61,522 bases of DNA from an uncultured bacterium (lineage in GTDB: Bacteria > Bacillota_I > Bacilli_A > RFN20 > CAG-826). Position 1 is the stretch's first letter, and each line of letters starts with the position of its first letter. Where the stretch lies: positions 1 to 61,522 of the forward strand of contig CASERQ010000006.1 in the NCBI GenBank assembly GCA_949290395.1, written 5' to 3'. A model generated the notes under the pieces. The model saw only the letters and a list, made by a program, of their open reading frames with translations, was not told the DNA's origin and searched no databases. Both the position numbers and the translations under genes were made by a program. Positions 1,638-26,934 of this stretch are shown in pieces.

Positions 1638-3272
1638 ATGAAATCTAAAAATGTTTTATTGTTATCATTATCTTTGGTTTTAAGTAGCGGAGTTCTTGTT
1701 TCTTGCGTTAATGAAGATGAGAAAATTTTAGATATTATCGAAACAAGTCTTGAACTATACGAAGGAGAAAATTACACATTAGATGTTGAAACTTTTAATT
1801 TATCTGGAGATTTAGTGTTTTCATCAAGCGATGAAAATGTTGCTAAAGTTGATAATAAAGGAAAGATTACTGCTTTAAAAGAAGGCGAAACCTACATTAA
1901 AGTTTCTAATGGCGAATTAACTGATTCTTTGCATTTAGTTGTTAAAAAAGATGTTGAACTTGAAACATTCAACATTTCTATAACAAAAGATAGTTTAAGT
2001 GTTGGTGAATCTACTTTAATTGAAGTTGACATTATTCCTAATGAATATTTAGAAAACGTAACTTACGAAATTAAAGAAGGCAAAGATTTAATTGAAATTA
2101 AAGATAGAAAAATAACTGCTCTAAAATCTGGAGAAGTTAGTCTTGTTGCTAAATGTGGGGCACAATATTCTAATGAAGTCACATTAACTATTTATGATTT
2201 TACAGCACAAGTTTTTAATAAAGAACTCGCCCCTGGTAGAAGTTTTGTTATTCGCACTAGTTTAGAAGATAATGAAATTAATTCAGATACAGTTGATGAA
2301 GTCGAAATTCAAGATCCTAGTATTTGTAAATATACTGGAGCCCAATATGGAACTTTGTATTTTGAAGCTTTAAAAGGCGGAAAGACAACTTTAGTTATTA
2401 AATTAAAAGATGGTAGAAAATCAAATAAAGTTGAAGTCATTGTAGAAAGCGAAAATAATTATGATGATATAACTAAAGAGGAATTCTATGCTAACTATAC
2501 AAGAGCTACTGATCCATTTGATGCAAAAACTCGCACTAGACATCATTTAATGAGTGGCGATATTTCTACGCAAGATCAAGAACCAACAATCGAAGAAGAA
2601 AGACCTATTCGTAATGGCGAATTTATTAAGCACAGCCCTAATTCTTATGCAGTAGCAGCTTTATTTCATACTGTAGTCGATAGTGAAGGATATGCTGCTT
2701 TTGATGTATATAAAGATGGAGCATATGTAACTCTTGAAGAAGTTGCAGCTTATATATTTGCTTTTGGCGATGTACCTCCTAACTATTATGAAGATCGTTA
2801 TAATTATCCAGAGCCTTACGAGTCACCATGGGGCGAGTATTTAAGGCTTAACAACTCTCCTTTTTCAGGCGATACCTCGGATTATCCTTATGAGCCAGAA
2901 TTACCACGTATTTCTGGAAATGGGGGAGACCTTGTTTATTATGAAGTTGATATTGGAACAACTGGAACAGATTGTGATCCTAACTATGAAACACGTGAAT
3001 ATAATGATGGTAATTCTATTGTTAGAGGTGCTGCTCGCATTGTTTATTCAGCAAGATACACTAATGGCAAACCAATAACTGATCCTGACGACCGTTATGT
3101 TTTTTATACTTATAACCATTACAATGATTTCCAAGAATATTTAAATTATGAAAACGGTTGGGGTGAAATGTTTGGAAATGTTTCGGCCGGTAACGAGTTA
3201 AATGAACACGATAGACACAATCCGCCAACAGAATATCCTGAAGTAGTGGCTGATTCGCTTACAGGTTTTTAA
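1638..3272 (+). CDS. lipoprotein with Big_2-type Ig domains and C-terminal barnase-like RNase domain
   Basis: The start at 1638 is chosen because GGAG (1627-1630) lies 7 bases upstream and gives a clean lipoprotein signal peptide with lipobox LVSC (Cys23); upstream in-frame ATGs at 1572 and 1632 fit worse. Residues ~30-275 contain two or three bacterial Ig-like (Big_2) domains (VFSSSDENVAKVDNKGKI is diagnostic). The C-terminal ~170 residues resemble the barnase/RNase N1 family: VAAYIFAFGDVPPNY matches the N-terminal helix, YYEVDIG carries a Glu (436) at the catalytic Glu73 position, VRGAARIVYS holds Arg463 and Arg467 with the same spacing as Arg83/Arg87, and NHYNDF gives His494 for His102. 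Two insertions (~17 and ~12 residues) separate these blocks. No barstar-like gene is seen nearby. Nuclease activity is inference. Confidence 0.75.
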   Translation: MKSKNVLLLSLSLVLSSGVLVSCVNEDEKILDIIETSLELYEGENYTLDVETFNLSGDLVFSSSDENVAKVDNKGKITALKEGETYIKVSNGELTDSLHLVVKKDVELETFNISITKDSLSVGESTLIEVDIIPNEYLENVTYEIKEGKDLIEIKDRKITALKSGEVSLVAKCGAQYSNEVTLTIYDFTAQVFNKELAPGRSFVIRTSLEDNEINSDTVDEVEIQDPSICKYTGAQYGTLYFEALKGGKTTLVIKLKDGRKSNKVEVIVESENNYDDITKEEFYANYTRATDPFDAKTRTRHHLMSGDISTQDQEPTIEEERPIRNGEFIKHSPNSYAVAALFHTVVDSEGYAAFDVYKDGAYVTLEEVAAYIFAFGDVPPNYYEDRYNYPEPYESPWGEYLRLNNSPFSGDTSDYPYEPELPRISGNGGDLVYYEVDIGTTGTDCDPNYETREYNDGNSIVRGAARIVYSARYTNGKPITDPDDRYVFYTYNHYNDFQEYLNYENGWGEMFGNVSAGNELNEHDRHNPPTEYPEVVADSLTGF

Positions 3273-3389: not shown

Positions 3390-4382
3390 GTGACAATGTA
3401 TAAACCACCATTTTCTTTAACAAATAAAATGTTAAGTAGTTCGATTAACATTAGTGAAAAAATTACAAAATTATCAGCATTCAAAAGCTTAAGAAAAATG
3501 CCTATTTTAAGAAGAAATAATCATATCAAGTCAATTCAATCTTCGCTTGCAATTGAAGCTAATTCATTAACCTTGAAGGAAGTTAAAGACGTTATTGACG
3601 GTAAAGTTGTTATTGGGCCTCAAAATGAAATTTTAGAAGTTAAAAATGCTGATAATGCATATAAAAAAGTAGATGATTTAGATCCATACTCAGAAAAAGA
3701 TCTAATTGCAGTTCATCAAATTTTTACAAAAGGGCTAATAGAAGACAAAGGCTATCGAAATAATAACGAAGGAGTTTTTGATGGCGGAAAAGTTATTTTC
3801 GCTGCGCCTCCTCCTAATATGGTGCCGACTTTGATGCATAATCTCTTTTCTTGGTTAAAAGATGATAATGAAACGCCTATTTTAATAAAATCATGTGTAT
3901 TTCATTATGAATTTGTTTTTATTCATCCTTTTAGTGACGGAAACGGAAGAACTGCAAGGTTTTGGCAAAACTTGATTTTAAGCAAATGGAATAAAGTATT
4001 CAGTTATGTCCCTATAGAATTGGAGATAAAAAACTACCAAAATGAATATTATGAAGCGATAAGTACATCTCATTTAAATGGCGATTCAAATGCTTTTGTT
4101 GAACTCATGCTTGAATTAATAGAAAAAAGCATTGATAAAATGCTTGTTACTTTAGAAAAGGAAAAAAGGACAATATCGTCAGAAGTGAATAGGTTATTAG
4201 ACGTGATGGAATATGATGTTTCTTACAGCGCTTTAGAATTAATAAAACTACTTGATATCAAAAGTAGAGACACTCTTAGAAATACTTATCTAAATCCTGC
4301 AATTGAGAATGGACTAGTAGAAATGTCTAATCGAAATAATCCAAAATCCAAAAATCAAAAATATATTAAAAAATGGAATTAA
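3390..4382 (+). CDS. Fic domain protein (class II, N-terminal inhibitory helix)
   Basis: Fic enzymes transfer AMP (or another phosphate-containing group) to hydroxyl side chains of target proteins. The core motif HPFSDGNGRTAR (residues ~179-190) is complete, including the catalytic His and the phosphate-binding GNGR. An N-terminal SLAIEAN matches the inhibitory helix (S/T)xxxE(G/N), with Ala instead of Gly after the Glu, so self-inhibition is likely retained. The C-terminal ~90 residues look like the winged helix common in this subgroup. GTG at 3390 lies 5 bases after AAGG; ATG at 3396 (MYKPPFSL) is the family-typical start and equally possible. It stands alone, next to a kinase remnant, in an accessory stretch. 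Confidence 0.92.
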   Translation: MTMYKPPFSLTNKMLSSSINISEKITKLSAFKSLRKMPILRRNNHIKSIQSSLAIEANSLTLKEVKDVIDGKVVIGPQNEILEVKNADNAYKKVDDLDPYSEKDLIAVHQIFTKGLIEDKGYRNNNEGVFDGGKVIFAAPPPNMVPTLMHNLFSWLKDDNETPILIKSCVFHYEFVFIHPFSDGNGRTARFWQNLILSKWNKVFSYVPIELEIKNYQNEYYEAISTSHLNGDSNAFVELMLELIEKSIDKMLVTLEKEKRTISSEVNRLLDVMEYDVSYSALELIKLLDIKSRDTLRNTYLNPAIENGLVEMSNRNNPKSKNQKYIKKWN

Positions 4383-6170: not shown

Positions 6171-6878
6171 ATGATGTTTAGCAACAAATTAAATTTAGAC
6201 AAAAACTTTATTGATATAGTTAACTTACTTAGAATTGATAACGATAAGATTCGTTATGATGCAAGTTTTTTTGAAAATATAAATAATTTTAGTGCCGAAG
6301 AAGAAATTAGTGATGAAAGTGTAATTTCTCAAAGTAATAATGACGATATAATTGAAATTTTTAGAAATTTAAAAAATGGTAGCGAAAAGGCATTTAGCTT
6401 ATTTTATGAAAAAACTTTTAAGAGCGTTTATTATAAACTTTTAACTTATGTTAAAAATCCAGAAACGGCTAACGATTTATCTCAAGATGTTTATTTAGAA
6501 TTTTATAAAAATGCCAAAAGAATTAAAGAAGATAAATCCTGTGTTACTTTTTTATTTATAATGGTTAAAAATATCGCTTTAAATTATTTAAGATTAACTA
6601 AAAACAATTTAGAGTTTGATGATTCGATAGATATGGGGCTTGAAGAAGATAATAAACTTGACGTTAATCTTATTTTTGCTCTTTTACGTGATGAAATTAA
6701 AGTTAATGAAAAAGACGAAGACATTCTCTTACTTCATGTTATCCAAGGTTATTCATTCAATGATATTGCAGCAATGTATGACTGCAATTTAAATACAGTT
6801 ATTACAAAATATAATCGAACTATAAAAAAGATTCAAAAATATTTTATTGAGAAAGGAGGAGCTTTGAATGATATTTGA
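6171..6878 (+). CDS. ECF-like sigma-70 family factor
   Basis: Residues ~60-135 form sigma region 2 (GSEKAFSLFYEKTF, then ANDLSQDVYLEFYKN) and ~180-225 region 4 (GYSFNDIAAMYDCNLNTV, a helix-turn-helix for the -35). Regions 3 and 1.1 are absent, as in ECF factors. An unusual ~55-residue acidic N-terminal extension precedes region 2. The last 11 bases overlap the next gene, a one-pass membrane protein, which is the classic sigma/anti-sigma arrangement. There is no ribosome-binding site at a normal distance; TATTAT at 6161-6166 lies 5 bases before the ATG, so a leaderless message is possible. Target genes are unknown. Confidence 0.85.
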   Translation: MMFSNKLNLDKNFIDIVNLLRIDNDKIRYDASFFENINNFSAEEEISDESVISQSNNDDIIEIFRNLKNGSEKAFSLFYEKTFKSVYYKLLTYVKNPETANDLSQDVYLEFYKNAKRIKEDKSCVTFLFIMVKNIALNYLRLTKNNLEFDDSIDMGLEEDNKLDVNLIFALLRDEIKVNEKDEDILLLHVIQGYSFNDIAAMYDCNLNTVITKYNRTIKKIQKYFIEKGGALNDI

Positions 6879-8745
6879 TGAAAAGAAGTTCAAAGAAGAA
6901 CTCCTTAATAACCCAAAAATTGAAAATAACTACGCTAAAATCATAGATAAAATTCATAAAGAAAATATTGAGATGCTCGAACCTGAATATTCTCTTTTTG
7001 ATAAATTTAAAGATATTTTAAGTAGTAAGAAAGTTAAAATTGGCGTTTTATCAACTGCTGGAATTTTAATTGTTGTTGGGGCAACTCTTGGCGGTTTATT
7101 ACCAAACCTTGGTGGACCTACGCCAACTGTTAAAGTGCCACCTACATTTTTAGGCATCTCTTTAAAGAAAGCTAGTGAGATACCAAACGAAGCTTTTAAT
7201 TTTAACTATAAAGATTTAGCTAATAATATTGAAATAGAAGAAAACGAAAAGATTGTTTTAGATCTTTCTTTTAATAACCCTGATAGTTTAGAGATTTCTT
7301 CATTTAAAATTTCAAGAAACGAAGAAGAAGCTACTGAATATACTGCTGAAGACTATTTAGAAGGCTCAAATTATTCCCACATTTATGTTGATGCTGGAAT
7401 TATGGATACAGATGAAGTTACTTTTAAAGTAAGCGATCTTCTTTATCTTGATGAAAATGGAGTTACAAATGATGTTTTAATTGAAGGAGAGACAAGTTTA
7501 GATTTGAAAGTTCCTGTGATCGACCCAATTCCTGATACAGACCCAGAACCAGATCCTAATCCTGAAGAGCCAGAGGAACCAGAAGAAGAATATCATGAGG
7601 CTGTTCTTACAAAGATAAATAGTGAAATCAATATTGATTCAGCAAAATACGATTTTAATTTAGTTGATGTTGATTCAACTTTAAGTAATGCAAAAGCTTA
7701 TCTATATGAAGGAAGTAATGAAATTGGAAATCAAGACATTACACTTTCTGAAAATTTTTCTGTAAGTTTTAATGGACTCACTGAAAATAAAGAATATCGA
7801 ATTCAAATTCAAGCCGATAAAGCTTTAAAAGATGGATCCACAAATAGAAACGCCCTTCTTTTCTCTGAAAGTTTTACAACGATTTCTTATTTTGATAGCT
7901 TTGACATTGAAGAAAGCTATACTTCGGCAAATTTAGTATTCACTAATTTAAGAGATGATGTAAGCATCGATAAAGTTGATGTTTATAGTGAAAATAGTAT
8001 TGTAAGTACTTTAGATGATATTACAGGAGATGAAGTTAGCATTCCTGATTTATTATCGAATCATGCATACGAATTACGTGCAACTTTATCAATAAACAAT
8101 GAACATCCATTAGAAATTAGAAGAACATTTAATACTTTAACTTATGATGTACCAACTTTTGAAATTGGTTCAGTAGTTCCAGGCGTGGATAGAGTAGATT
8201 TTACTTATAGAATTAATGACCCACATGATTTAGGCGATGTTACAAACGTTGAACTTTATAAAGGCGAAGAGTTTATAAAGAATACAACAGGATCATTTTT
8301 TGGGTCTCTTGAAGGCGGAACTTCTTATGTAATCAGAGTTACATATGAATATGATTTATTAGATGGAACAGGCCCAAAGATTATTACTGATAGCGAAATA
8401 TTCACTACACAGACTTTCTCTCTTTCAATTAGAGCTATAAGTACATCTGCTTCTTCTTCAGGTAATAGAGTAATTGTAGGGGCTTCTTATTATGTATCAA
8501 TTGCAATTAATAACGCTACTAGAGTAGAAGTTAAGACTTTTGTTATTAATGGAGAAAGTTATAATGCGGTTTTAACAAATCAATTTGAAAAAAATGAATA
8601 TCGTATTGATATGACAGCACCAAGTGAACCTTCTTTTGAAACTTTTGAGATTACAGGGTGCACTTATGAACTTAATGGCACAACTCATGATTATACGTTT
8701 GAAGAGCCTGGTAAATATCAACTTGAATTCTTCTATATGGGATAA
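6868..8745 (+). CDS. putative anti-sigma membrane protein with extracellular FN3-like repeats
   Basis: Residues 1-~55 are cytosolic and charged, ~57-80 form one transmembrane helix (VKIGVLSTAGILIVVGATLG), and the rest faces outward. A first beta-rich region (~95-220) is followed by a Pro/Asp/Glu linker (DTDPEPDPNPEEPEEPEEEY) and then about three ~95-residue fibronectin-III-like repeats (ending ~330, ~425, ~520) plus a C-terminal beta domain. The ribosome-binding site AAAGGAGG lies inside the end of the sigma gene and the genes overlap by 11 bases, so they are translationally coupled. No zinc-binding HxxxCxxC anti-sigma motif is present; the anti-sigma role rests on position and topology. Confidence 0.65.
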   Translation: MIFDEKKFKEELLNNPKIENNYAKIIDKIHKENIEMLEPEYSLFDKFKDILSSKKVKIGVLSTAGILIVVGATLGGLLPNLGGPTPTVKVPPTFLGISLKKASEIPNEAFNFNYKDLANNIEIEENEKIVLDLSFNNPDSLEISSFKISRNEEEATEYTAEDYLEGSNYSHIYVDAGIMDTDEVTFKVSDLLYLDENGVTNDVLIEGETSLDLKVPVIDPIPDTDPEPDPNPEEPEEPEEEYHEAVLTKINSEINIDSAKYDFNLVDVDSTLSNAKAYLYEGSNEIGNQDITLSENFSVSFNGLTENKEYRIQIQADKALKDGSTNRNALLFSESFTTISYFDSFDIEESYTSANLVFTNLRDDVSIDKVDVYSENSIVSTLDDITGDEVSIPDLLSNHAYELRATLSINNEHPLEIRRTFNTLTYDVPTFEIGSVVPGVDRVDFTYRINDPHDLGDVTNVELYKGEEFIKNTTGSFFGSLEGGTSYVIRVTYEYDLLDGTGPKIITDSEIFTTQTFSLSIRAISTSASSSGNRVIVGASYYVSIAINNATRVEVKTFVINGESYNAVLTNQFEKNEYRIDMTAPSEPSFETFEITGCTYELNGTTHDYTFEEPGKYQLEFFYMG

Positions 8746-9162: not shown

Positions 9163-10473
9163 ATGCTTTTTAAAAGATCATTTAAAGTTTTAACGATTTT
9201 TTCGACGTTCTTACTAACATTATCTTCTTGCTCAGGAGGCAATGCTAAACTTTTGTTTGAAGCGAAAAAAGAAAACGAACATCTTTCAACTAATTTAGAT
9301 TTTGATAAAGGATATTTAAAAATTTTAGAAAGTGTAAATAGTTTTTCGAGTAAAGTCTCTCCTTTAACTTATGATAATTATGCAAGAGACAAAAACGAAA
9401 ACTTTGTTTGCTCACCTATTTCTATTTATATGGCTTTATCGATGGCTCAAGAAGCAGGGCTTAATGAAACTCGTGAAGAGATTCTAGACTCATTAGAAAT
9501 AGATCATGAAACATTGAAATCTCGTTTTAATGATCTTTATAGTGATTTAATTTATGAAACAGAAACTGCCAAATTAAATCTCACGAATTCCATTTGGCTT
9601 ACCTCAAATTTAGAATATAAAGATGAAGGATTAAAAAATTTAGCTTCTTTTTATAACACTGATTCATATCAAGCTGATTTTTTAAATGACAATAAAGGCG
9701 CTAATGAAGCAATTAGATATTATATTAAAGAAAAAACAAATGATTTAATTGATATTAATTTGAATGCGCCTGATGTCACAACATATATCTTGCTAAACAC
9801 CTTATACTTAAAAGATAATTGGCTCGAATTTGGCGAAGAATTAGACTATTATCCTAATAAAGTCGCTTTTAAAAATTATGATGGGACAACAAGTAATGTC
9901 CAATTATTAGAACATGGTTACCAATTCGGTGCGATCTATGATGGCGGTGATTTTAAAGCCGTAAGAATTACAACAGATGCTAATTACACTCTTAAATTTA
10001 TAGTTCCAGATAAAGGAGTTGACGTTAAAGATGTTTTTAACGAAGCAAATTTAAAATATTTAAATAACGTTTCAAATGAACCTTTTGATGGTTATGATAA
10101 AAAAACTAATACATACTATTATACAAACGTTATTTTTCCAGAATTCGAGGCAAGTTTTAACGATAATATCAAAGGAATGTTAATTAATGATTTAAATATC
10201 AAATCTTTATTTGAGCAAAAAGTTGGCGAATCTACTATTTTAGCGGATAATATCGTGAATTATTGTAGTGAGGTTCGTCACGTTTCTAAATTAAAGGTCG
10301 ATAAAAAAGGGATTGAAGGAGCGGCGATTACAGCGATAATAATGGCTGGGAGTGCAGAACTAGAACCAAAAAATGAAGTCTTTCAAGACTTTATTGTAGA
10401 TAGAGCGTTTGGCTTCACTTTAACTGATTCTAGTGGCATTAATTTATTTAGTGGAATAGTTAAAAACGTATAA
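9163..10473 (+). CDS. serpin-family protease inhibitor, lipoprotein
   Basis: Signal peptide with lipobox LSSC (Cys23) predicts a membrane-anchored surface protein. The serpin fold is recognisable from FVCSPISIYMALSMAQEA, from LNTLYLKDNW, and from the C-terminal block DRAFGFTLTDSSGINLFSG. Serpins trap serine or cysteine proteases by insertion of a cleaved reactive loop. The hinge KKGIEGAAITA (residues ~381-391) fits the inhibitory pattern of small residues at P12-P9, though P14 is Ile rather than Thr/Ser. Counting from P15 Gly, P1 falls at about Ser397 (GSAE), which would suit an elastase- or subtilisin-like protease; P1 by counting is approximate. Gut bifidobacterial serpins inhibit host elastases, a plausible parallel. 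Confidence 0.9.
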   Translation: MLFKRSFKVLTIFSTFLLTLSSCSGGNAKLLFEAKKENEHLSTNLDFDKGYLKILESVNSFSSKVSPLTYDNYARDKNENFVCSPISIYMALSMAQEAGLNETREEILDSLEIDHETLKSRFNDLYSDLIYETETAKLNLTNSIWLTSNLEYKDEGLKNLASFYNTDSYQADFLNDNKGANEAIRYYIKEKTNDLIDINLNAPDVTTYILLNTLYLKDNWLEFGEELDYYPNKVAFKNYDGTTSNVQLLEHGYQFGAIYDGGDFKAVRITTDANYTLKFIVPDKGVDVKDVFNEANLKYLNNVSNEPFDGYDKKTNTYYYTNVIFPEFEASFNDNIKGMLINDLNIKSLFEQKVGESTILADNIVNYCSEVRHVSKLKVDKKGIEGAAITAIIMAGSAELEPKNEVFQDFIVDRAFGFTLTDSSGINLFSGIVKNV

Positions 10474-11199: not shown

Positions 11200-12525
11200 A
11201 TGGAAAGTACATTAAACAATGAATTAATTGATTTTTTAAATCGAGCTCATAATGAATATTTAGCAACTTATGAGATTAAAAATATTTTACTTGAAAATGA
11301 TTTTGAAGAAGTTAAAGAAAATGAAGTTTGGAATTTAAAACCTAATTCAAAATATTTTTTAACACGTAACGATAATTCTTGCATTGCCTTCATTACACCT
11401 TCAAAAGTCCGCAAAAATCAATTATTTTTTAAAATTATTTCGTCTCATCTTGATTCGCCTTGCTTAAAACTTAAGTCAAATTCAATTATTTTAGATAGTA
11501 GTTCTAATTTAGAAAAACATCGTATTGAAGTTTATGGAGGATTAATCAGACAAAGTTTTGTTGACCGCCCACTAGGACTTGCTGGTAGAGTTGTTGTAAA
11601 AACTAATAATGGCATTGAATCAAGAATTTTTGATTCTTGTAAAGCAATTGCAATTATTCCAAATGTTGCAATTCACCAAAACCGTGAAATTAATGATGGC
11701 TTCAAATATAATCCTCATGTTGATCTTTTACCTATTGTAGGAGGTGCTGAAACTATCGAACCACTTTTAGATTCTTATATAAAGGATAAATTTAAAGATG
11801 TAGGTGAAGTTTTAAGTTACGATTTATATTTTTATAACTTTGATAAAGCCCAACATATAGGAATTAATGATGATTTTATTAGCGGAGCTAAAGAAGATGA
11901 CTTAGCTAACGCATTTTTATCTTTAAAAGCATTACTTGAAACGAGCAGAAAAGAAGAAGATCCTTCAATTTTAGTTTCAGCTTTCTTCAATAATGAAGAA
12001 ACAGGTTCATTATCTTTTTCAGGAGCAGATAGTGATTTACTTGAAAACACTTTAAAAAGAATTGGACTTTCTTTTGATTTAAATGAAGAAGAATATTTAA
12101 TTTCGCTTAAAAAATCTTTTGCTTTAAGCGCGGATAATGGACATGCAGTTCACCCATATCATCCAGAACTTAGTGATGATATTAATAAATGTCAGTTAAA
12201 TAAAGGCCCAATGATTAAGTTTAATTCCAACATGGCTTATACAAGTGATGCACTTACTTCCTCATTTGTAATTTCTTTATGTAAAAAATGTGGAGTTAAA
12301 TACCAAGTTTTCCATAATAGAAGTGATCAAAGAGGTGGTTCAACCTTAGGTAATATTTCAATTTCTCATCTTTCAATTTTAACTTGTGATATTGGATTAC
12401 CTCAACTTGCGATGCATTCCTCTTTTGAAACAATGGGAAGCGAAGATACAATGATGATGCTTAAATTAATGAGTGCTTTTTATCAAACAAATTTCCGTGT
12501 TGATAATGGCGTTATCTATATATAA
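11200..12525 (+). CDS. apeB: M18 family aminopeptidase (ApeB/aspartyl aminopeptidase type)
   Basis: A dinuclear zinc exopeptidase that removes N-terminal (often acidic) residues from peptides in the cytosol. The metal and catalytic motifs are in order: HLDSPCLKLK (first His ligand), GAKEDDLANA (bridging Asp), NNEETGS (catalytic Glu pair), ALSADNGHAVHP (Asp), and AMHSSFETMG near the C-terminus (last His). At 441 residues it is of normal length. No signal peptide. It is followed after ~80 bases by a second, divergent M18 enzyme with its own promoter-like sequence. Confidence 0.93.
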   Translation: MESTLNNELIDFLNRAHNEYLATYEIKNILLENDFEEVKENEVWNLKPNSKYFLTRNDNSCIAFITPSKVRKNQLFFKIISSHLDSPCLKLKSNSIILDSSSNLEKHRIEVYGGLIRQSFVDRPLGLAGRVVVKTNNGIESRIFDSCKAIAIIPNVAIHQNREINDGFKYNPHVDLLPIVGGAETIEPLLDSYIKDKFKDVGEVLSYDLYFYNFDKAQHIGINDDFISGAKEDDLANAFLSLKALLETSRKEEDPSILVSAFFNNEETGSLSFSGADSDLLENTLKRIGLSFDLNEEEYLISLKKSFALSADNGHAVHPYHPELSDDINKCQLNKGPMIKFNSNMAYTSDALTSSFVISLCKKCGVKYQVFHNRSDQRGGSTLGNISISHLSILTCDIGLPQLAMHSSFETMGSEDTMMMLKLMSAFYQTNFRVDNGVIYI

Positions 12526-12570
12526 AGATAATAGGTAATTTTTTTATCATTTTTAAAGACAAAAAAATTT

Positions 12571-12583
12571 TATAATTTATAAT
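12571..12583 (+). promoter_or_regulatory. tandem TATAAT boxes before second M18 gene
   Basis: TATAAT occurs at 12571-12576 and again at 12578-12583, 20-35 bases before the start codon. The first is better placed relative to GGAGG (12592-12596). No good -35. Confidence 0.4.
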
Positions 12584-12604
12584 TTCTTGTTGGAGGTAAT
12601 GGTT

Positions 12605-13972
12605 ATGTATAACAAATATGCTTATGAAAAATATAGTGGAGACAAAAACATTGAATTAGAAAAATTTTCTAAAGATTATATTGATTTCCTTTCTGTTTCT
12701 AAAACAGAACGTATTTTTACTAAAAATTCTGTAAAGCTTGCTGAAGAATTTGGCTTTAAAAATATTAATGAAGTTAAATCTTTAAAAGCTGGGGACAAAG
12801 TTTATTCGGTTAATAGAGGAAAAAACGTTGCTCTTTTTGTTATTGGTAAGGAAGATTTAGTAAATGGTATCAATATTTTAGGAGCTCACATTGATTCACC
12901 TCGTTTAGATATCAAACAAAATCCTTTATATGAATCAACAAACTTTGCACTTTTAGATACTCACTATTATGGTGGAGTAAAAAAATATCAATGGGTTACA
13001 ATTCCACTTGCTTTATATGGAACCGTTTATAAAAAAGATGGAAGCGAAGTTGAAATTGCAATTGGCGATAAAGAAGGTGATCCAGTTTTTGGAATTAGTG
13101 ATTTATTAATTCACCTTTCTGGTGATCAACTTCAAAAAACAGCTGCAAAAGTTATCGAAGGCGAAGATTTAGATCTTACTGTTGGCTCTTTGCCAATCAA
13201 AGATGGCGAAAAAGATTCTGTTAAAGCAAACATCTTAAGAATCTTAAAAGAAAACTATGCAATTGAAGAAGATGATTTTGCAAGTGCTGAACTTGAAGTA
13301 GTTCCAGCTGGAAGAGCTAGAGAATATGGTCTAGACAGAAGCATGATTGCTGGTTATGGGCATGATGATAAAGTTTGTGCTTATACTTCTTTAAGAGCGA
13401 TTCTTGAAACAAGTGCTCCAGAAAGAACAGCTTGTTGCATCTTAGTTGATAAAGAAGAAATTGGTTCAGTTGGAGCAACTGGTGCTCAATCAAGATATTT
13501 TGAAAACTTAATAGCAGAAGTTATGAACTTAAAAGGAGAATATTCTGAACTTGCTTTAAGAAGATGCTTAACAAATTCAAGAATGTTATCAAGTGATGTT
13601 TCAGCTGGAGTTGATCCATTATTCCTTGGCGTTAATGAACTCAAAAATAGTGCATATTTAAATAAAGGTATTGTCTTTAATAAATATACTGGTGCAAGAG
13701 GAAAGAGCGGATGTAATGATGCTTCTCCAAAATTCATTGCTCATTTAAGAAATATTCTTGATGAAGATGGTGTATATTATCAAACAGCCGAACTTGGAAA
13801 AGTTGATCAAGGAGGCGGCGGAACAATCGCTTATATCCTTGCAAACTTAAATATGGATGTAATTGATGCAGGAATTGCAGTCTTAAATATGCATGCTCCT
13901 ATGGAAATAGTAAGTAAGATTGATGTTTATGAAGCCTATCTTGCTTATAAAACATTCTTAATTAAAGGTTAA
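12605..13972 (+). CDS. M18 family aminopeptidase, second paralogue
   Basis: The start at 12605 is preferred because GGAGG at 12592-12596 then has an 8-base spacing; the ATG at 12599 would be only 2 bases away. Metal and catalytic motifs: GAHIDSPRLD, GYGHDDKVCAYTSL, DKEEIGSVGATGAQS (catalytic Glu pair), SSDVSAGVDP and LNMHAPMEIVSK. This is the ~460-residue clade found in Clostridia and Thermotoga-like genomes, clearly different in sequence from the enzyme encoded upstream. Two M18 enzymes side by side suggest strong use of peptides as nutrients. Closed by the terminator at 13980-14019. Confidence 0.93.
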   Translation: MYNKYAYEKYSGDKNIELEKFSKDYIDFLSVSKTERIFTKNSVKLAEEFGFKNINEVKSLKAGDKVYSVNRGKNVALFVIGKEDLVNGINILGAHIDSPRLDIKQNPLYESTNFALLDTHYYGGVKKYQWVTIPLALYGTVYKKDGSEVEIAIGDKEGDPVFGISDLLIHLSGDQLQKTAAKVIEGEDLDLTVGSLPIKDGEKDSVKANILRILKENYAIEEDDFASAELEVVPAGRAREYGLDRSMIAGYGHDDKVCAYTSLRAILETSAPERTACCILVDKEEIGSVGATGAQSRYFENLIAEVMNLKGEYSELALRRCLTNSRMLSSDVSAGVDPLFLGVNELKNSAYLNKGIVFNKYTGARGKSGCNDASPKFIAHLRNILDEDGVYYQTAELGKVDQGGGGTIAYILANLNMDVIDAGIAVLNMHAPMEIVSKIDVYEAYLAYKTFLIKG

Positions 13973-13979
13973 TGAAATT

Positions 13980-14019
13980 AAAAAATCAGACAGTCTTAAA
14001 AAGATTTGTCTGATTTTTT
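13980..14019 (+). terminator. intrinsic terminator after M18 gene
   Basis: AAAAAATCAGACA (13980-13992) pairs with TGTCTGATTTTTT (14007-14019), with a run of T continuing to 14020. Confidence 0.9.
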
Positions 14020-14057
14020 TATTAAGAGCTGAAAATTTATATTCCTAAAGAAAATAA

Positions 14058-14080
14058 AAATCCCTGCTAAACAGGGATTT
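14058..14080 (-). terminator. terminator of tRNA-Val (minus strand)
   Basis: AAATCCCTG and CAGGGATTT pair around a 5-base loop. On the minus strand the stem is followed by TTTATTTTC, just downstream of tRNA-Val. Confidence 0.85.
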
Positions 14081-14091
14081 AATTTTTAATT

Positions 14092-14167
14092 TGGTGGGTA
14101 CTATAGGGATCGAACCTATGACCTTCTGTACGTCAAACAGATGCTCTCCCAGCTGAGCTAAATACCC
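14092..14167 (-). tRNA. tRNA-Val (anticodon GAC), CCA encoded
   Basis: The reverse strand folds as a 76-base cloverleaf: acceptor GGGTATT/AGTACCC (one G-T pair), D arm GCTC/GAGC, anticodon stem TCTGT/ACAGA with loop TTGACGT (anticodon GAC, reads GUC/GUU), T arm ATAGG-TTCGATC-CCTAT, and an encoded CCA at 14092-14094. It has its own promoter and terminator, so it is a single-gene unit. The ~440-base gap between M18 and the CvpA-like gene otherwise holds only these signals and A/T-rich DNA. Confidence 0.95.
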
Positions 14168-14178
14168 AACGCCTGTAT

Positions 14179-14207
14179 ATAATATCATAGGGGCAGAAGC
14201 CTTGCAA
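14179..14207 (-). promoter_or_regulatory. promoter of tRNA-Val
   Basis: On the minus strand: -35 TTGCAA (14202-14207), 17-base spacer, -10 TATTAT (14179-14184), 11 bases before the mature tRNA. An A/T-rich stretch lies upstream of the -35. Confidence 0.75.
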
Positions 14208-14412
14208 GAAAAAATTAAAAAAATTTTTAAAATATTTTTTGACTGTGTGAAAGTTTTAACACCCTAATTTTTCAAGAATTTTTAGCTCATATTCACTAAT
14301 TTTTTTATTTTTGAGAAAAATGCCCGAAAATAACCTTTTTACATAAAAAAAGTTTTAAAAACTCATTTTTTTTCTTTATTTTTTCTAAATCAAACAATAA
14401 AATATAGTTAAT

Positions 14413-15300
14413 ATGATCAACGTAGATCTAATTTTAATAATATGTGTCTGCCTTGGTTTTTTAGGAGGCATCATTCGAGGTTGGTGGAGAAGCTTTATTG
14501 GCGCTCTTGTTTTAGTTGCTGTAACAGGCATTCTTTACTTTGGTCTTTATGACTTTGCATGGCAATGGATGCAATATGATAGCCTCGAATTCCTTGCAAA
14601 AACCTTTAATTTTGATTTATCTTACACGATTGAAGAGTTTGGACTCACAATCAGATTGACCAATTTTAAAGATACATTCTTATATTTACAAAACGTTGGT
14701 TTAGATCCTGTTTTATTAAATGCTACTAGTGAAGGTGTTTCAAAATCACTTGTTGGTATTGTTGGATTTTTAATTATCGTTCTTGGATCATTCTTATTTT
14801 CCATTATTCTTTATTGGGTACTCCTTAAATGGATTATGCCTAAAAAACTTAGAAAAAAGGGTTTATTTTCCCGCTTAATTGGTGGAATTATTGGTGCAGT
14901 TGAACTTGGTGCAATTTGCTTAATATTCCTTCAATTCACAGGAAATTTAATCGTACCACTTGAAAACGTAATTCTTCCAGAACTTACAAATAAAGAAAGC
15001 GAACTTTATCAATTATTAATTTCAGCTCAAATCGCAGTTAGCGATATTGATATGATTGTGAACATTTTGACTAATGTTAGTAAATTCTTAAATCCTATTT
15101 CTCAAGAATCTAATATTGTCAGAGCGCTTTATGAAAATTTAAACAATATGGGACTAAGTCCTTTCAATACAATTTCTGTTAACGTTATTGATGAAAACGG
15201 TGCAAAAGTTGAAATTCCATTCAAGGATGCTTTCACCGATATGCTTGATAACTTAGTAGAAGTTGGAGTTGGAAAACTGAATACCTTATTGGGAGCTTAA
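14413..15300 (+). CDS. CvpA-like membrane protein
   Basis: Four or so hydrophobic segments (~4-42, ~105-140, ~150-180). The opening, GFLGGIIRGWWRSFIGALVL, is the hallmark of the CvpA (colicin V production) family, and GLFSRLIGGIIGAVELGAI resembles its last conserved helix pair. At 295 residues it is longer than classical CvpA (~160-180) because of an extracellular loop (~45-100) and a C-terminal domain. Function in this family is unclear, with links to envelope integrity. It is the first gene of an apparent three-gene operon with the two large proteins that follow. There is no ribosome-binding site; -10-like boxes at 14398-14408 sit 5-10 bases before the ATG. Confidence 0.65.
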   Translation: MINVDLILIICVCLGFLGGIIRGWWRSFIGALVLVAVTGILYFGLYDFAWQWMQYDSLEFLAKTFNFDLSYTIEEFGLTIRLTNFKDTFLYLQNVGLDPVLLNATSEGVSKSLVGIVGFLIIVLGSFLFSIILYWVLLKWIMPKKLRKKGLFSRLIGGIIGAVELGAICLIFLQFTGNLIVPLENVILPELTNKESELYQLLISAQIAVSDIDMIVNILTNVSKFLNPISQESNIVRALYENLNNMGLSPFNTISVNVIDENGAKVEIPFKDAFTDMLDNLVEVGVGKLNTLLGA

Positions 15301-15319
15301 TACGGGGGAGGGACCTAAC

Positions 15320-17470
15320 ATGAAGAAAAACCGTGTTTTAAGAAACTGGATTATCACCGGGTTAGTTTGCCTTGTGATTACTCTAGGCGTACTCGTAGTA
15401 GGCATGCTCTTCACAGATCCTAGTGTTTTTGGCTTAGACTTGACCGAAGGCGCTAGTCTTGGTGCAATTGCCTGGCTACCTGCCTTTACTTACAAAGGTT
15501 TAGGACATTTCTATGGTAATGGCCTTGAAGAAATGTTCACAGCCATGTTCAGTGAAGTTGGATGGACATCATTAGGACGTATCATCGACAATGTTATTTG
15601 GTGGCTAGTTGTTGTTATCTGTCTTGTATTCTTTATTACAATTTTAGTTAAAGCAATTAGAAGAAAAAGTGGAAAATATATCTGGTTTGCAGTATTTTTC
15701 TTCCTTTTCTCAGTAGTTTGCGTTGGTTGTACTACAGGCTATTATTTTGCAAGACACATCGATTGGTCATTAGAAGGAACAAAAGTAATTAGTGAAGGAT
15801 TTGTTGGCGGAACCGCACATTATGATCATATTTCCTTTATAACTGCTTATGTAAACGCTCTAGTTCCTGGACTTTATTCAAAAGCACCAGCTGCTGCTTC
15901 AGCAAATGAATTTGCTTGGGTCGTTAGTGTTTTAACTTGGGTTTTATCTTTAGCAGTTATTATTACAATAGTTGCTTATCTTGGAATGGCATTTACTGTT
16001 ATTAGAAGATTAAGAAAACCAGTTGAAGAAGTTGTTGAAGAACCAGTTCAAGTTGCAGAACCTGTCGTTGAACCAGAAGTTGCTCCAGTTGAAGAAAAGA
16101 AAAAAGGTATTCTTGTTGTCAGAAGATTTGACAAATACGGAAACCATGGACCACTTGTTGAAGTTGGCGAAGAAGATTATCCACGTAAACCAATTAAAGC
16201 AAAACCTTTAACAATCGAAGATGTTAAAAGAGTTATTCAAGAAGAAGTAGAAAAAGCTGAAGCTAGAAGAATCGTTGAAGAATATAAGAACGAAAAGCAA
16301 GCTCAAGCTATTGCTGCTGCTATTGTTAAAGCAAGTGGAAAGAGCGAAACAACCTCTGTTCCAGTTGTATCACAAGCTGTTGAAGGCAAAAAAGAAGAAG
16401 GAAAAGTCTATCCTTCACCTGTAATTTTTGCGATGCCAACAGACGTTAAAGAAGAAGGCGAAAAAGTTGAAGAAGCCGTTGAAAAACCTGTAGCTCCTAA
16501 AAAAGAAAACAAAGGTTTAACAGAAGATCAAGTAAAAGAAATTATTGCTAGCGAAATTAGAGAAGCTCTCAAAGATTTCGTTATCAAACATGAAAAAGTT
16601 GTTGAAAAACAAGTTGAAGTAAAAGTTCCTGCTAAAGAACCAATTGCTGAAGAAGTTAAAGAAGAACCAGCACCTGTTGAAGAAGTAAAAGCGGAAGAAA
16701 CAAAAGAAGAAACTGTTACTGAAACTGTTGTTGAAACAAATCCAATCGTCGAAGAAAAAGTTAGCGAAGAAGTCGTTACTGAAGAAGTAAAACCAGTTGA
16801 AACTCCTGTCGAAGAGACAAAAGTCGAAGAAGTTAAAGAAGAAGTTCCTGCTGAAGAAGTTAAGGAAGAAGTCGCTAGCGAACCAGTTGTTGAAGAAGTA
16901 AAAGAAGAACCAGCACCTGTTGAAGAAGCAAAAGAAGAAACACCAGCTCCAGAAGTCAAAGAAGAACCTGTAGTTGAAAGTGTTGTTGCTCCTGTTGCTG
17001 AAACAACTGAGAAGCCAAAAATTATCAGAATTCCATTCACAACCAGAATGCTTGAAGCTGATCAAGATTTAAAAGATGCTTATAATCACATCAAATCACT
17101 CCTTAAATCTTATGGTTTAAACAACAGAGTTGCTAATGGTGGTGATTCATTCAGATTACATAGAGTTACATATTGTAAGATCACTATTGCTGGAAAATCA
17201 TTAAAATTATACCTTGCTCTAGATCCAAAAGATTATGTTGACACAACATATCCTGTAAAAGATGCAAGTAGCAAAAACTTATATAAAGAAACTCCACTTG
17301 TTTTCAAAGTTAAGAGTGGTCTCAGCTTAAGAAGAGCTGAAGAATTAATCAGAGACTGTATGGATAAACATGGTCTCGAACAAATCGATCAAATCCAACC
17401 TCATGATTGGGTTAGTGAACTCACAAACGAAGCTGTCGAAGATGATGGCGATGTTGGTGACGAAGAATAA
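15320..17470 (+). CDS. four-helix membrane protein with disordered acidic region and uncharacterised C-terminal domain (paralogue A)
   Basis: Residues ~10-32, ~92-115, ~122-145 and ~205-230 are transmembrane. Residues ~230-570 are low-complexity Glu/Val/Lys/Pro sequence, broken by two short predicted helices of one type (LTIEDVKRVIQEEVEKAEAR at ~296; LTEDQVKEIIASEIREAL at ~400). The final ~125 residues form a compact domain (HRVTYCKITIAGKSLKLYLALD, then LSLRRAEELIRDCM). I have seen similar C-terminal domains in uncharacterised proteins of gut Bacillota but know no function. A strong GGGGGAGGG ribosome-binding site and a G+C-richer start suggest high expression. The next gene is a full-length paralogue. 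Confidence 0.7.
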   Translation: MKKNRVLRNWIITGLVCLVITLGVLVVGMLFTDPSVFGLDLTEGASLGAIAWLPAFTYKGLGHFYGNGLEEMFTAMFSEVGWTSLGRIIDNVIWWLVVVICLVFFITILVKAIRRKSGKYIWFAVFFFLFSVVCVGCTTGYYFARHIDWSLEGTKVISEGFVGGTAHYDHISFITAYVNALVPGLYSKAPAAASANEFAWVVSVLTWVLSLAVIITIVAYLGMAFTVIRRLRKPVEEVVEEPVQVAEPVVEPEVAPVEEKKKGILVVRRFDKYGNHGPLVEVGEEDYPRKPIKAKPLTIEDVKRVIQEEVEKAEARRIVEEYKNEKQAQAIAAAIVKASGKSETTSVPVVSQAVEGKKEEGKVYPSPVIFAMPTDVKEEGEKVEEAVEKPVAPKKENKGLTEDQVKEIIASEIREALKDFVIKHEKVVEKQVEVKVPAKEPIAEEVKEEPAPVEEVKAEETKEETVTETVVETNPIVEEKVSEEVVTEEVKPVETPVEETKVEEVKEEVPAEEVKEEVASEPVVEEVKEEPAPVEEAKEETPAPEVKEEPVVESVVAPVAETTEKPKIIRIPFTTRMLEADQDLKDAYNHIKSLLKSYGLNNRVANGGDSFRLHRVTYCKITIAGKSLKLYLALDPKDYVDTTYPVKDASSKNLYKETPLVFKVKSGLSLRRAEELIRDCMDKHGLEQIDQIQPHDWVSELTNEAVEDDGDVGDEE

Positions 17471-23599: not shown

Positions 23600-24712
23600 A
23601 TGAAAAGATTTATCCTAAGCACGATTACAATTTTACCAACACTAGGATGTTTGTTTTCGCCACAAGAAAATTTTAACACCATAAAGAATGTTAAAAAAGC
23701 AAATTCATCTGAGTTTGAAGCAAGAGAATATCAGACAATCTCAAATGATCTTTATGATGTTTTCTTAGGAAATTTTGACATTAATTTAACGAATTTTTAT
23801 GAGAAAGATGTTTTAAGTTTCAACTTAACTTTTACAAAACCAACAAGCTTAATTAGGGCGTATCATGTATTTCTACTTGATGGGGAGAAAAATCTAGTTT
23901 CAACGTTAAAAGATGGAACAATTGACGCAGTAACTCATGAATATACGACCAAAGTGGATCTTTATCAAAGCGAAATTAATGAATTAGGGAACACATATTA
24001 TATTCGAATCGCCGGAAGCGACTCTATTAAAAGACCATACCAGATGATAAGAGAGTACATAGAATTTCCTTTATCAAATGTGAAAAATCTTGTGATGGAT
24101 TCGAATTATTTAGAGTATGTAACCGGAGTGAGTTACGACACAAGGACACTTACAATAAATAGAGAATATATAAAACTTAATAACATTGAAAAGGATATTT
24201 ATTTAGATCTTTATTATCGTTTTCATTTGCATGATATAAATGCTGAATTTTATGTAAAAAGTTTTTCTGATGTAAGAAACTCGAAAAAATATCTTTATAT
24301 TCATGATCCAAATAGGCTTTATAATCTAGCATTTCAAGAAACTGAGGAGTTTCCAGGTTACTCAATGGCAGCAACTTTTTTTGAAATCACAAAAAATAAG
24401 ACAATGACTGATTTTTCCTTATCAAATAATTTTTATGTTGATCAATTAACCGGTCTTATGAGTTTAAGAAGAGGTCAATTTACAAATTATTTTAAAACTA
24501 GTTATTTCCTTTATATGCCTTTTAACTACTATAAAGATTTTAAAGATACAAAGATGATTTTTAGAATCAAGGATTTTGGCGCTCCAAAATGCAACATTCT
24601 TTATTATTTTACTCTTCATTACGCAGAAAATTTTATAAGCGATACTTATACCGTAATCGGAGAAGAAGGAAAGAAAGACTGGGGCGGCTATATGGTTGAG
24701 GTAAAAATATGA
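23600..24712 (+). CDS. secreted protein of unknown function, first gene of the Tad-like locus
   Basis: N-terminal signal sequence (MKRFILSTITILPTLGC; a weak lipobox TLGC at Cys17 is possible), then ~350 residues without further membrane segments, rich in Tyr, Asn and Phe and probably beta-rich. I recognise no domain. A strong GAGGAGG ribosome-binding site precedes the ATG. It overlaps the next gene by ATGA (4 bases) and leads a run of seven tightly packed genes that contains the pilus ATPase and platform proteins, so a surface or tip component of the pilus is a reasonable guess, no more. Confidence 0.55.
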   Translation: MKRFILSTITILPTLGCLFSPQENFNTIKNVKKANSSEFEAREYQTISNDLYDVFLGNFDINLTNFYEKDVLSFNLTFTKPTSLIRAYHVFLLDGEKNLVSTLKDGTIDAVTHEYTTKVDLYQSEINELGNTYYIRIAGSDSIKRPYQMIREYIEFPLSNVKNLVMDSNYLEYVTGVSYDTRTLTINREYIKLNNIEKDIYLDLYYRFHLHDINAEFYVKSFSDVRNSKKYLYIHDPNRLYNLAFQETEEFPGYSMAATFFEITKNKTMTDFSLSNNFYVDQLTGLMSLRRGQFTNYFKTSYFLYMPFNYYKDFKDTKMIFRIKDFGAPKCNILYYFTLHYAENFISDTYTVIGEEGKKDWGGYMVEVKI

Positions 24713-25107
24713 GCAGTGCAATTATATTTTTCTCATTCCTTTTATTAACATCATTAACTAATGTTTTAGGAATCTCAGTAAATGGCATGTCCATTAATAG
24801 AATCTTTAATAATTTACCAATTGGTTTAATAACCTCAGCCGTTTCACCTCTTGATTCAACAGGAAATGTTGCACCTCATTTCGACCGAGCAGCTCTTGAA
24901 AAAAACGTAAAAAATTATTTATCGAAAAGTCTTGATCCATATATTGAAAGTTACAAAATTAGTTTTCGATATTTTAAGGTAAGCGATGGCGAGTATGTAA
25001 TTGATAGTTCGTCTCTTCCACAAAATGTAGATATTCATTTTAAGTGTACTTATTGCGCATATATAAATTTTGATGGATATAGATCTTTTAGGATAGAAAG
25101 GAAATAA
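24709..25107 (+). CDS. small membrane-anchored protein, candidate minor pilin
   Basis: 132 residues. A hydrophobic N-terminal helix (AIIFFSFLLLTSLTNVLGI) is followed by ~110 extracellular residues including two Cys (KCTYC). This shape, one N-terminal helix then a small globular part, is that of TadE/TadF-type pseudopilins, but no family motif is clear. ATGA overlap with the gene before, 2-base gap to the ATPase gene after. Belongs to the Tad-like operon by position. Confidence 0.5.
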   Translation: MSSAIIFFSFLLLTSLTNVLGISVNGMSINRIFNNLPIGLITSAVSPLDSTGNVAPHFDRAALEKNVKNYLSKSLDPYIESYKISFRYFKVSDGEYVIDSSSLPQNVDIHFKCTYCAYINFDGYRSFRIERK

Positions 25108-25109
25108 TA

Positions 25110-26162
25110 ATGAACACAAAATTAATCGAATTTATTGAAACAAGTTTTTTAAACCCACTTTTAGAAAAAGAAAGTATCACCGATATTTCTTATAATGGTG
25201 AAGCGATTTTTTACCAGGATAATAATTTAGGAAGAGCAAAAAGTGATATTCAGGTAACAAATGAAGAAGTTTATGCGTTTTTAAGACAAATTGCGAATCT
25301 AACAGACCAACAATTTTCATTTGCTAATCCAATTTTAGATGTAAGCGTTGGGCGATATAGAATTAGTGCTCTTCATTCTTCTTTAGCAAGAAAAAATAAG
25401 GAAAAAGTCTATAATTTTTCAATTAGAATTGGGATTGATACTTTAAGAATTAAAGATGATGGAAGTTTTATAAATAAAAAAGCATTGACTCTACTTGATG
25501 AAGCAATTGATAAAAGATGTTCTATTGTAATTGCAGGGAAAACAGGAGCTGGTAAAACAGAGTTTCAAAAGTTTTTAATCTCGAGAATGAAGGAAAATAC
25601 GAGAATCATTTTAGTCGATAACATCAACGAATTTGAGACGAATTACTTTAAAGATAATTTAGATAGTCAAACCTGGCTTGTAAATAATCAGAAAAATAAT
25701 TTTGATGATTTAATTAAAAACGCTTTAAGAAGTAATCCAGATTGGCTGGTTGTCGGAGAAGTAAGAGGCGAAGAAATGAAAGCTTGTTTAAATTCCACTA
25801 TGTCAGGCTCTCCAACTATAACAACAATGCATGCAAGAGACGCTGAAAGTGTATATCACAGAATTGCAAGAATGTGCATGATTAATTCTAAAAATTTAGA
25901 GTTTGATGAAACTTTACAAGACGTTAAAGAACATTTTAAATTTGTGGTTTATGTAAAAAGAGTCTTTGACAGTAAAAAAGGGAGCTATGTAAGATACGTT
26001 GATTCGATATCAACAAACGATAATGGAAAGTATGTTGAACTTTATAAATATCCATCAACTTTTAAGAGATTACCTTCTGAATTAAGGACTTATTTAGAGA
26101 TGTCTCTTGTTGAGTTTAATAAATTTAATAGGACTTTTGCGGGGTTAAAGAATGAAAATTAG
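25110..26162 (+). CDS. CpaF/TadA-like secretion ATPase
   Basis: Powers pilus assembly as a cytosolic hexamer. Walker A GKTGAGKTEF is at ~142-151, preceded by the N-terminal domain (SFANPILDVSVGRYRISA). The Asp box (ILVDNINEFE), Walker B (SNPDWLVVGEVRGEE) and His box (TTMHARDAESVYHRI) are all recognisable. 350 residues, the length of compact TadA enzymes without the long N-terminal extension of CpaF. It overlaps the TadB-like gene by 11 bases. Conjugative or type II ATPases are alternatives, but the neighbours favour Tad. Confidence 0.9.
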   Translation: MNTKLIEFIETSFLNPLLEKESITDISYNGEAIFYQDNNLGRAKSDIQVTNEEVYAFLRQIANLTDQQFSFANPILDVSVGRYRISALHSSLARKNKEKVYNFSIRIGIDTLRIKDDGSFINKKALTLLDEAIDKRCSIVIAGKTGAGKTEFQKFLISRMKENTRIILVDNINEFETNYFKDNLDSQTWLVNNQKNNFDDLIKNALRSNPDWLVVGEVRGEEMKACLNSTMSGSPTITTMHARDAESVYHRIARMCMINSKNLEFDETLQDVKEHFKFVVYVKRVFDSKKGSYVRYVDSISTNDNGKYVELYKYPSTFKRLPSELRTYLEMSLVEFNKFNRTFAGLKNEN

Positions 26163-26934
26163 ACATTTTATATATATTTTAGTTTCTTTTGTTCTCGCAA
26201 TAAGTAACTTATTAATTGCGCAAAACATCATTACAACGGTTGTTGTTTTAATTCTTTCTTTAGTAATATTTTTCGTAATTTATGAGAGAGATTATACAAA
26301 GTATAAAAGAAATTTGTCGCGCTCTTATGAAGCGATAAATTACATGAATAACTTTATTATTTCTTTAAGCGTTAATCCAAGTTTAGTCCATGCTTTTGAA
26401 AACGCTAGAAATAGTGCATCAAGCGAACTTAAGTTACAAATTGATTCATTAAAACATCTTACAATCGAAGAGCAGATTGCTTATTTATATAGATATTTTG
26501 AACTACCGATTTATGGTGTGTTTGTAAATGTTATTAAGCAATACGTATTTAATGGTGGAGATATTTTAGATATTTCTCAAACACTCATGAGAGATTCTCG
26601 TGAACTAGAAGACCGACTTCTAAATTATGAAAAAATGAGTAGAAGAGCTTTCTTTGAATTTATTACAAGCCGGGCGCTTACCTTTGTTATTTTATTTATT
26701 CTTCAATTTTCAATAAGTACTATTTATAAATCGATAGCAACAATTGCTAATTACCCAGTTTTGATTCTTATCTTTTATCTAATTTTCTCAATGGTTTTCA
26801 TTCTCATGATTTATAGAACTTATGACATTACATTTATGACGAAAGGAGATTCTTATGTTAAAGAAGCAAAAGCAAAAAATGCTAAAACTAAATCTAGATC
26901 CAAAAAAAGAATTTTTAAAGCTCGTAATAGGTAA
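26152..26934 (+). CDS. TadB-like inner-membrane platform protein
   Basis: 260 residues. Two N-terminal transmembrane segments (~5-45), a cytosolic helical domain (YEAINYMNNFIISLSVNPSL, with GGDILDISQTLMRDSRELE typical of T2SSF/TadB), and C-terminal membrane segments (~180-225). Platform proteins of this kind convert ATPase motion into pilin insertion. The 3' end of its frame, coding a very basic tail, overlaps the next gene by 80 bases. Confidence 0.75.
   Translation: MKIRHFIYILVSFVLAISNLLIAQNIITTVVVLILSLVIFFVIYERDYTKYKRNLSRSYEAINYMNNFIISLSVNPSLVHAFENARNSASSELKLQIDSLKHLTIEEQIAYLYRYFELPIYGVFVNVIKQYVFNGGDILDISQTLMRDSRELEDRLLNYEKMSRRAFFEFITSRALTFVILFILQFSISTIYKSIATIANYPVLILIFYLIFSMVFILMIYRTYDITFMTKGDSYVKEAKAKNAKTKSRSKKRIFKARNR

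Follow-up and report, generated by a model that had tools for sequence, protein, structure and literature searches.

A gene in the 61,522-nucleotide stretch of DNA analysed here (the window) encodes a 544-residue lipoprotein whose C-terminal domain is predicted, with good support, to adopt the barnase (microbial RNase) fold. Our preferred reading, to which we assign a probability of roughly 0.6, is that the protein is a surface-tethered barnase-type RNase that digests extracellular RNA for nucleotide supply. The features on which this reading is built are collected in Table 1. A literature search found no description of this lipoprotein family and none of a barnase-like ribonuclease as a surface lipoprotein.

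Table 1. Features of the RNase lipoprotein gene (positions are those of the window).
Feature	Position	Strand	Basis
Whole gene, 544-residue lipoprotein with C-terminal barnase-like domain	1638..3272	+	ORF, Pfam, predicted model
Signal peptide and lipobox LVSC, lipid Cys23	1638..1706	+	Sequence; lipobox rule in relatives
Ig-like domain 1 (Big_2), residues ~30-103	1725..1946	+	Pfam Big_2 E 7e-8; model
Probable Ig-like domain 2, residues ~110-186	1965..2195	+	Beta-rich block in full-length model, pLDDT mostly 87-93; weak Ig matches
Probable Ig-like domain 3, residues ~190-269	2205..2444	+	Model; sub-cut-off Pfam match
N-terminal extension of enzyme domain, residues 277-361 (85 residues), absent from barnase	2466..2720	+	Conserved in 80-sequence alignment; modelled with domain; barnase superposition begins at model residues 84-87
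Barnase-like core, residues 361-502	2718..3143	+	VIA-align: model 85-226 to barnase 2-110
Glu436, equivalent to barnase Glu73 (general base)	2943..2945	+	106/106; ExD[IF] motif
Insertion 1, Glu to first Arg, +17 residues relative to barnase (bounds approximate)	2955..3017	+	Register; low-confidence loop, pLDDT 74-75
Arg463, equivalent to barnase Arg83	3024..3026	+	106/106
Arg467, equivalent to barnase Arg87	3036..3038	+	106/106
Insertion 2, second Arg to His, +12 residues relative to barnase (bounds approximate)	3051..3098	+	Register
His494, equivalent to barnase His102 (general acid)	3117..3119	+	106/106
C-terminal extension, residues 503-544 (42 residues), NYxxGWGxxFGN	3144..3269	+	Conserved in 80-sequence alignment

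The open frame is uninterrupted. An alternative in-frame ATG at 1572 would lengthen the product to 566 residues; we prefer the start at 1638 because GGAG precedes it (1627-1630) and because the signal peptide begins there. The lipobox named in the original prediction is present in the sequence as LVSC with Cys23, and a permissive lipobox rule is satisfied by 76 of 77 untruncated relatives. Under a stricter start rule, 74/77 of these relatives are lipoproteins, compared with 47/315 neighbouring ORFs, with starts allowed within 60 residues for the family and within 40 for the control ORFs. A promoter scan gave a result at chance level, and an Rfam scan returned three tRNAs only and no riboswitch.

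The original prediction had proposed a barnase-like domain from the sequence and suggested structure prediction as a check. AlphaFold2 modelling of residues 277-544 with 80 sequences gave a barnase-type fold (pLDDT 90.9, pTM 0.91). The best superposition on barnase covers 99 residues at 2.3 Å with a Z score of 7.7, values under 8 being ones that a common arrangement can also produce. VIA-align, here a structural re-alignment of Foldseek candidates, ranks barnase or binase at positions 1-36 (Z 6.3-7.7, r.m.s.d. 2.2-2.9, 92-102 aligned residues, 22-30% identity) and RNase Sa types at positions 37-50, such that rows 1-50 are all microbial RNases. We accept the barnase fold despite a Z score below 8 because the ranking is uniform, the whole barnase chain is covered and there is sequence evidence besides. 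By itself, Foldseek returned nothing significant: unrelated proteins head its list, the best of them at E 1.0, and RNase Sa3 stands at rank 7 with the highest listed probability, 0.20.

Searches with the single protein against Pfam, NCBIfam and PDB sequences gave sub-threshold RNase matches or none, and profiles and intermediates were needed. The Pfam Ribonuclease profile (PF00545) matches residues 429-500 of the full protein with 16.7 bits (E 0.011), below the gathering cut-off of 24 bits, and is weaker still on residues 277-544 by themselves (E 0.56). The same profile is matched by 80/80 family members at E values up to 10 (best 8.5e-5), with other families matched by at most three, and all 22 matches of the family profile to PDB sequences are barnase-type (best E 0.076). 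Shorter relatives from the same bacterial family supply the intermediates: 20 loci were fetched and 10 scanned, and six of the 10 exceed the PF00545 cut-off, the best at 40.2 bits, which closes the homology chain to barnase. A chance resemblance between unrelated proteins could appeal to the low PF00545 score and to Foldseek E values of 1 or more. It would then have to accommodate structural rows that are microbial RNases throughout, a PDB profile result of a single type, a Pfam family found in every member when the next is found in three, and intermediates above the cut-off; we consider it extremely improbable and, on this structural, profile and intermediate evidence, refuted for practical purposes.

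We aligned 106 sequences, comprising 80 from one set of relatives (A2), six from another (A1) and 20 distant relatives. Glu436, Arg463, Arg467 and His494 are invariant in 106/106. Only 11 of the 268 domain columns are fully invariant (Pro380, Asn382, Arg403, Glu436, Asp438, Arg463, Arg467, Thr491, His494, Tyr495 and Glu500), and the chance that four fixed columns would all fall among them is 1.6e-6. In the model, strand 156-162 holds Glu436, strand 191-198 starts at Arg467 just past Arg463, and strand 212-216 precedes His494 (adding 276 gives protein numbering), an order that we take to be that of barnase strands 2 to 4. The clustering of the four residues in space was viewed through the superposition and the strand register only. 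The catalytic set of the original prediction, including the NHYNDF motif at 493, is read directly in the sequence, and the barnase-like fold and active site are supported by the superposition, by invariance and by intermediates above the Pfam cut-off.

Spacing within the motif register accounts for the two insertions that had been proposed. Glu to Arg and Arg to His are each separated by 27 residues in the domain; the corresponding barnase spacings, which we take to be 10 and 15, give insertions of +17 and +12. Both insertions hold up, and the limits between which the structures superpose (model 86-226, barnase 3-110) agree with +33 in total. Two further elements, absent from the original prediction, are family-conserved extensions at the N terminus (277-361) and C terminus (503-544) of the domain.

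Arg403 (2844-2846) and Glu500 (3135-3137) are likewise invariant in 106/106 relatives. We know of no catalytic counterpart of either in barnase, and judging by the alignment the pair may constitute a family signature.

Barnase recognizes guanine through a loop, S-N-R-E, and Lys27. The SNRE loop was not found in the protein or in the A1 alignment rows. One shorter relative has GGTFQNREGYLP ahead of its ECD motif, which we take to be very like the guanine loop of barnase, and in the same comparison relatives L138 and L149 read GGTFQNREG and IGGDYFSN. Near the position of Lys27, column 387 is Lys or Arg in 81 of 106 sequences, in a register that is uncertain. An unconserved guanine loop and two insertions beside the active site would suit a domain whose catalysis has been lost or changed, the barnase fold being reused as an RNA-binding module, for instance for uptake; the OB-like proteins linked to the gene in relatives (see below) also suggest binding. 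Binding alone, however, would not demand that four catalytic residues be kept in 106/106 sequences, and we think such a reuse very unlikely.

Between the lipid anchor and the enzyme, the original prediction had placed an Ig-like (Big_2) stalk. The Big_2 match stands (residues 36-100, E 7e-8, 32.8 bits where the cut-off is 22.8), and the model of the whole protein (mean pLDDT 74, made with ten sequences) has beta-rich blocks at residues ~30-103, 110-186 and 190-269 ahead of the enzyme domain. From these blocks in the model, the stalk therefore probably consists of three Ig-like domains rather than one. Weak matches to S-layer and Hoc-like Ig domains span residues 44-186, and a sub-cut-off Pfam match, T2SS-T3SS_pil_N, covers residues 218-269. 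The stalk is variable across the family: the linker from lipid Cys to enzyme domain ranges from 41 to 802 residues, and the C-terminal enzyme domain is conserved, with a mean column identity of 57% in the 80-sequence alignment.

The domain occurs in nine of 26 genomes of the genus, as ten genes, and is absent from the other 17. A profile search of the bacterial family to which the window belongs found it in 59/224 genomes and 15/35 genera, and a scan of bacterial and archaeal genomes returned 193 relatives, 80 of which were kept. Their record titles name Bacilli, Erysipelotrichaceae, Acholeplasmatales, Clostridia, Oscillospiraceae and unplaced uncultured bacteria; where a source is named it is mostly an animal gut. 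No relative was found in plasmids or in 2.9 million viral contigs. One phage record from human faeces, PV036447.1, encodes a homologue that is 54.9% identical over 99% of the domain. There, at 11402-16879, genes for a small lipoprotein, a subtilase and the RNase lipoprotein lie between the tail genes and the tape measure gene. The phage is one of Anaeroplasmataceae, with a secreted-protein cassette inside its tail module. The cassette is likely to be lysogenic-conversion cargo, and a phage-borne homologue leaves room for a role in conflict.

Barnase is a textbook enzyme known with its inhibitor, barstar. The original prediction had seen no barstar neighbour and proposed a search of the rest of the genome. 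That search (PF01337, E≤10) gave no match in the whole genome, in which control profiles did match, and none of the 26 genus genomes has a barstar above the cut-off, so that the absence is borne out on a wider scale. Three weak PF01337 matches (E 0.09-0.41) occur in two of the 26. Barstars are found in 3/39 of the relatives' genomes and none overlaps the family loci.

These observations bear on two functions that had been offered side by side, a contact-dependent toxin and a nutrient-scavenging RNase; the second is the better supported, and the missing barstar and the constant C terminus speak against the first. In the toxin reading, the stalk would present the RNase to neighbouring cells, or a shed domain would enter them, whether by contact or after lytic release. 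Barnase-type domains are common as tips of polymorphic toxins (PMC3482391), and the phage homologue travels as tailed-phage cargo in a three-gene cassette of lipoprotein, subtilase and RNase lipoprotein. Yet no barstar is present in the genome or above the cut-off in the 26 genus genomes, the barstars in three of the 39 relatives' genomes do not overlap the family loci, no delivery module was seen beside the gene, and a conserved C terminus (57%) behind a linker of 41-802 residues is the reverse of what polymorphic toxins have. We regard an antibacterial toxin as unlikely. A prophage- or defence-linked surface RNase, spread by phage and acting on the surroundings of the host such as biofilm RNA or superinfecting particles, would fit the single phage record with its 55% identical, 99% covering homologue in a tail module, as well as the patchy presence in 9/26 genus and 59/224 family genomes. 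It is harder to reconcile with the lack of relatives in 2.9 million viral contigs or in plasmids, with the lack of a PADLOC match for the RNase, and with surroundings of the window copy in which no phage gene was recognised (most neighbours being named by eye); we consider this reading decidedly unlikely. Scavenging of extracellular RNA is favoured over a contact toxin because no barstar was found in the genome, because purC and pyrB are absent from the genus, because in one same-genus relative and in clostridial relatives the gene ends an operon with SNase genes and an ABC importer, and because the enzyme is conserved and the stalk variable. Several points count against scavenging: the window's own copy is outside such an operon, 17 of 26 genus genomes do without the gene, purC occurs in 15/39 of the relatives' genomes, and one homologue travels as prophage cargo.

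In one genome of the same genus (G002), the RNase gene is the last of a one-strand operon. Ahead of it come ABC permeases and a pair each of solute-binding and SNase lipoproteins, one of the latter matching a lamin tail below the cut-off, then a zinc-ribbon protein and a lipoprotein of 941 residues. Clostridial relatives have the same operon order. Nineteen clostridial genomes were searched for SNase. In 11/17 regions around an SNase match, the RNase gene follows downstream on the SNase strand, a count that describes one arrangement rather than a frequency because the genomes were picked on neighbourhoods already showing these genes; the remaining six regions are cut short by a contig border 1.6-3.8 kb downstream. 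Convergent behind the RNase gene are SurE in 14/80 loci and DHH phosphoesterases in 16/80, and most of the 80 loci have no such neighbour within 5 kb. SNase genes are present in 19/26 genus genomes; among the nine that carry the RNase, three gave no SNase match. The linked surface proteins are labelled OB-fold on weak grounds, namely sub-cut-off Pfam matches.

The window's own copy lies outside any SNase-ABC operon, flanked by a broken LRR gene and a Fic gene. Elsewhere in the same genome (contig C2, 57000-68000), permeases, two binding lipoproteins, an SNase lipoprotein, a zinc-ribbon protein and a repeat lipoprotein of 1032 residues are encoded on one strand, with no RNase; this ABC/SNase/OB-like group is the genome's own operon for acquiring nucleic acids. 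The window itself holds thymidine kinase and pyrimidine-nucleoside phosphorylase.

Neither purC (PF01259) nor pyrB (TIGR00670) was found in any of the 26 genus genomes, whereas all 14 control genomes have each of them; purC is present in 15/39 of the relatives' genomes. Auxotrophy failed as a discriminating test because 17 of the 26 genus genomes have no RNase and yet all 26, with or without it, have neither purC nor pyrB.

Other genes in the window deserve brief description. The LRR gene (213-1584) is of BspA type (PF13306) and is frameshifted at a perfect 16-base tandem duplication (623-654); the gene may be broken, may switch by slippage, or may owe the frameshift to misassembly. The Fic/DOC protein (3390-4382), which has a Fic-like C-terminal domain and is SoFic-like in PADLOC, starts about 118 bases past the RNase gene on the same strand. 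A Sigma-70-like factor is followed by a 625-residue protein with no Pfam match (together 6171-8745), possibly its membrane partner with extracellular repeats. A serpin (9163-10473; PF00079, E 1e-45), here in a small-genome gut bacterium, has an N-terminal LSSC lipobox by eye. A type II/IV secretion ATPase (PF00437) with membrane partners (24709-27526) is perhaps part of a Tad-like pilus cluster.

For the lipoprotein we infer that it is an active RNase exposed at the surface, and we infer its substrate and its nutritional role; the mechanism we propose is as follows. Anchored in the outer face of the membrane, the lipoprotein would use its three-domain Ig-like stalk to hold out a metal-independent barnase-type endoribonuclease. 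The chemistry is likely to be that of barnase, with Glu436 as general base, His494 as general acid, and Arg463 and Arg467 binding phosphate, and cleavage would leave 2',3'-cyclic and then 3' phosphate ends. RNA from the host, from food or from lysed bacteria would be cut at the cell surface, and the fragments passed to surface nucleases and nucleotidases before nucleosides are imported. Provided that folding takes place only after Sec export, the cell would need no inhibitor.

A broad family is predicted to carry the barnase fold on a tether at the cell exterior, with no barstar apparent. Should the activity be confirmed, it would give uncultured gut bacteria, which seem incapable of nucleotide synthesis, a concrete route of RNA feeding and tie that feeding to a testable nuclease/importer operon. 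It would also mean that export and anchoring alone can keep a potentially self-toxic enzyme safe. More tentatively, gut Bacilli and Clostridia may share a dedicated surface nucleic-acid-eating system of SNase lipoproteins, OB-like capture proteins and an ABC importer, in which the inhibitor-free, stalk-mounted barnase would be the RNA arm, a mobile accessory also carried as prophage cargo, and the missing RNA-specific counterpart of the mycoplasma SNase-ABC system; we hold this wider scheme to be possible, though somewhat short of probable.

With barnase and binase (PF00545) the protein shares the core fold over barnase 1-110, the Glu, Arg, Arg, His set, a helix 1 motif with VA.Y and P.NY, and HY..F at the catalytic His. 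Unlike them, it is a lipoprotein with an Ig stalk, +17 and +12 insertions and extensions at both ends of the domain, has no barstar, does not conserve the guanine loop and scores under the Pfam cut-off. Tox-Barnase/Imm-Barstar polymorphic toxins also carry a barnase-type domain at the C terminus of a secreted protein (PMC3482391), whereas here an immunity gene was not found, the C terminus is constant, the stalk is variable and there is no delivery domain.

The surface SNase of Mycoplasma agalactiae shares a transcript with an ABC transporter and a binding lipoprotein, and was proposed to supply that transporter with nucleotides (PMC3585158). Such ABC-operon nucleases (MAG_5040, mhp379) are, as we predict the present protein to be, surface nucleases; they belong to a small-genome relative that depends on imported nucleotide precursors, and relatives of the present gene sit in a similar operon. 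These nucleases differ in having the metal-dependent SNase fold, and the accessible parts of the two sources contain no barnase-type member (PMC3585158, PMC12115388). Within the accessible text of a mycoplasma nuclease review, no word begins with ribonuclease, RNase or barnase (PMC12115388). In Izemoplasmatales, loci for DNA degradation encode nucleases and ABC transporters together with a lamin-tail protein (PMC8289736). A locus of Hujiaoplasma nucleasis includes NrnA and an extracellular ribonuclease, and many of its genes rise on DNA and RNA (PMC10470597). These loci resemble ours in combining extracellular nucleases with ABC transporters, a lamin-tail protein and NrnA. They differ in that DNA is the main substrate described and that, in the excerpts available, the 'extracellular ribonuclease' is not identified as barnase-like (PMC8289736, PMC10470597). 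The new element is the occurrence of a stalked barnase-type lipoprotein alongside nucleases and an importer.
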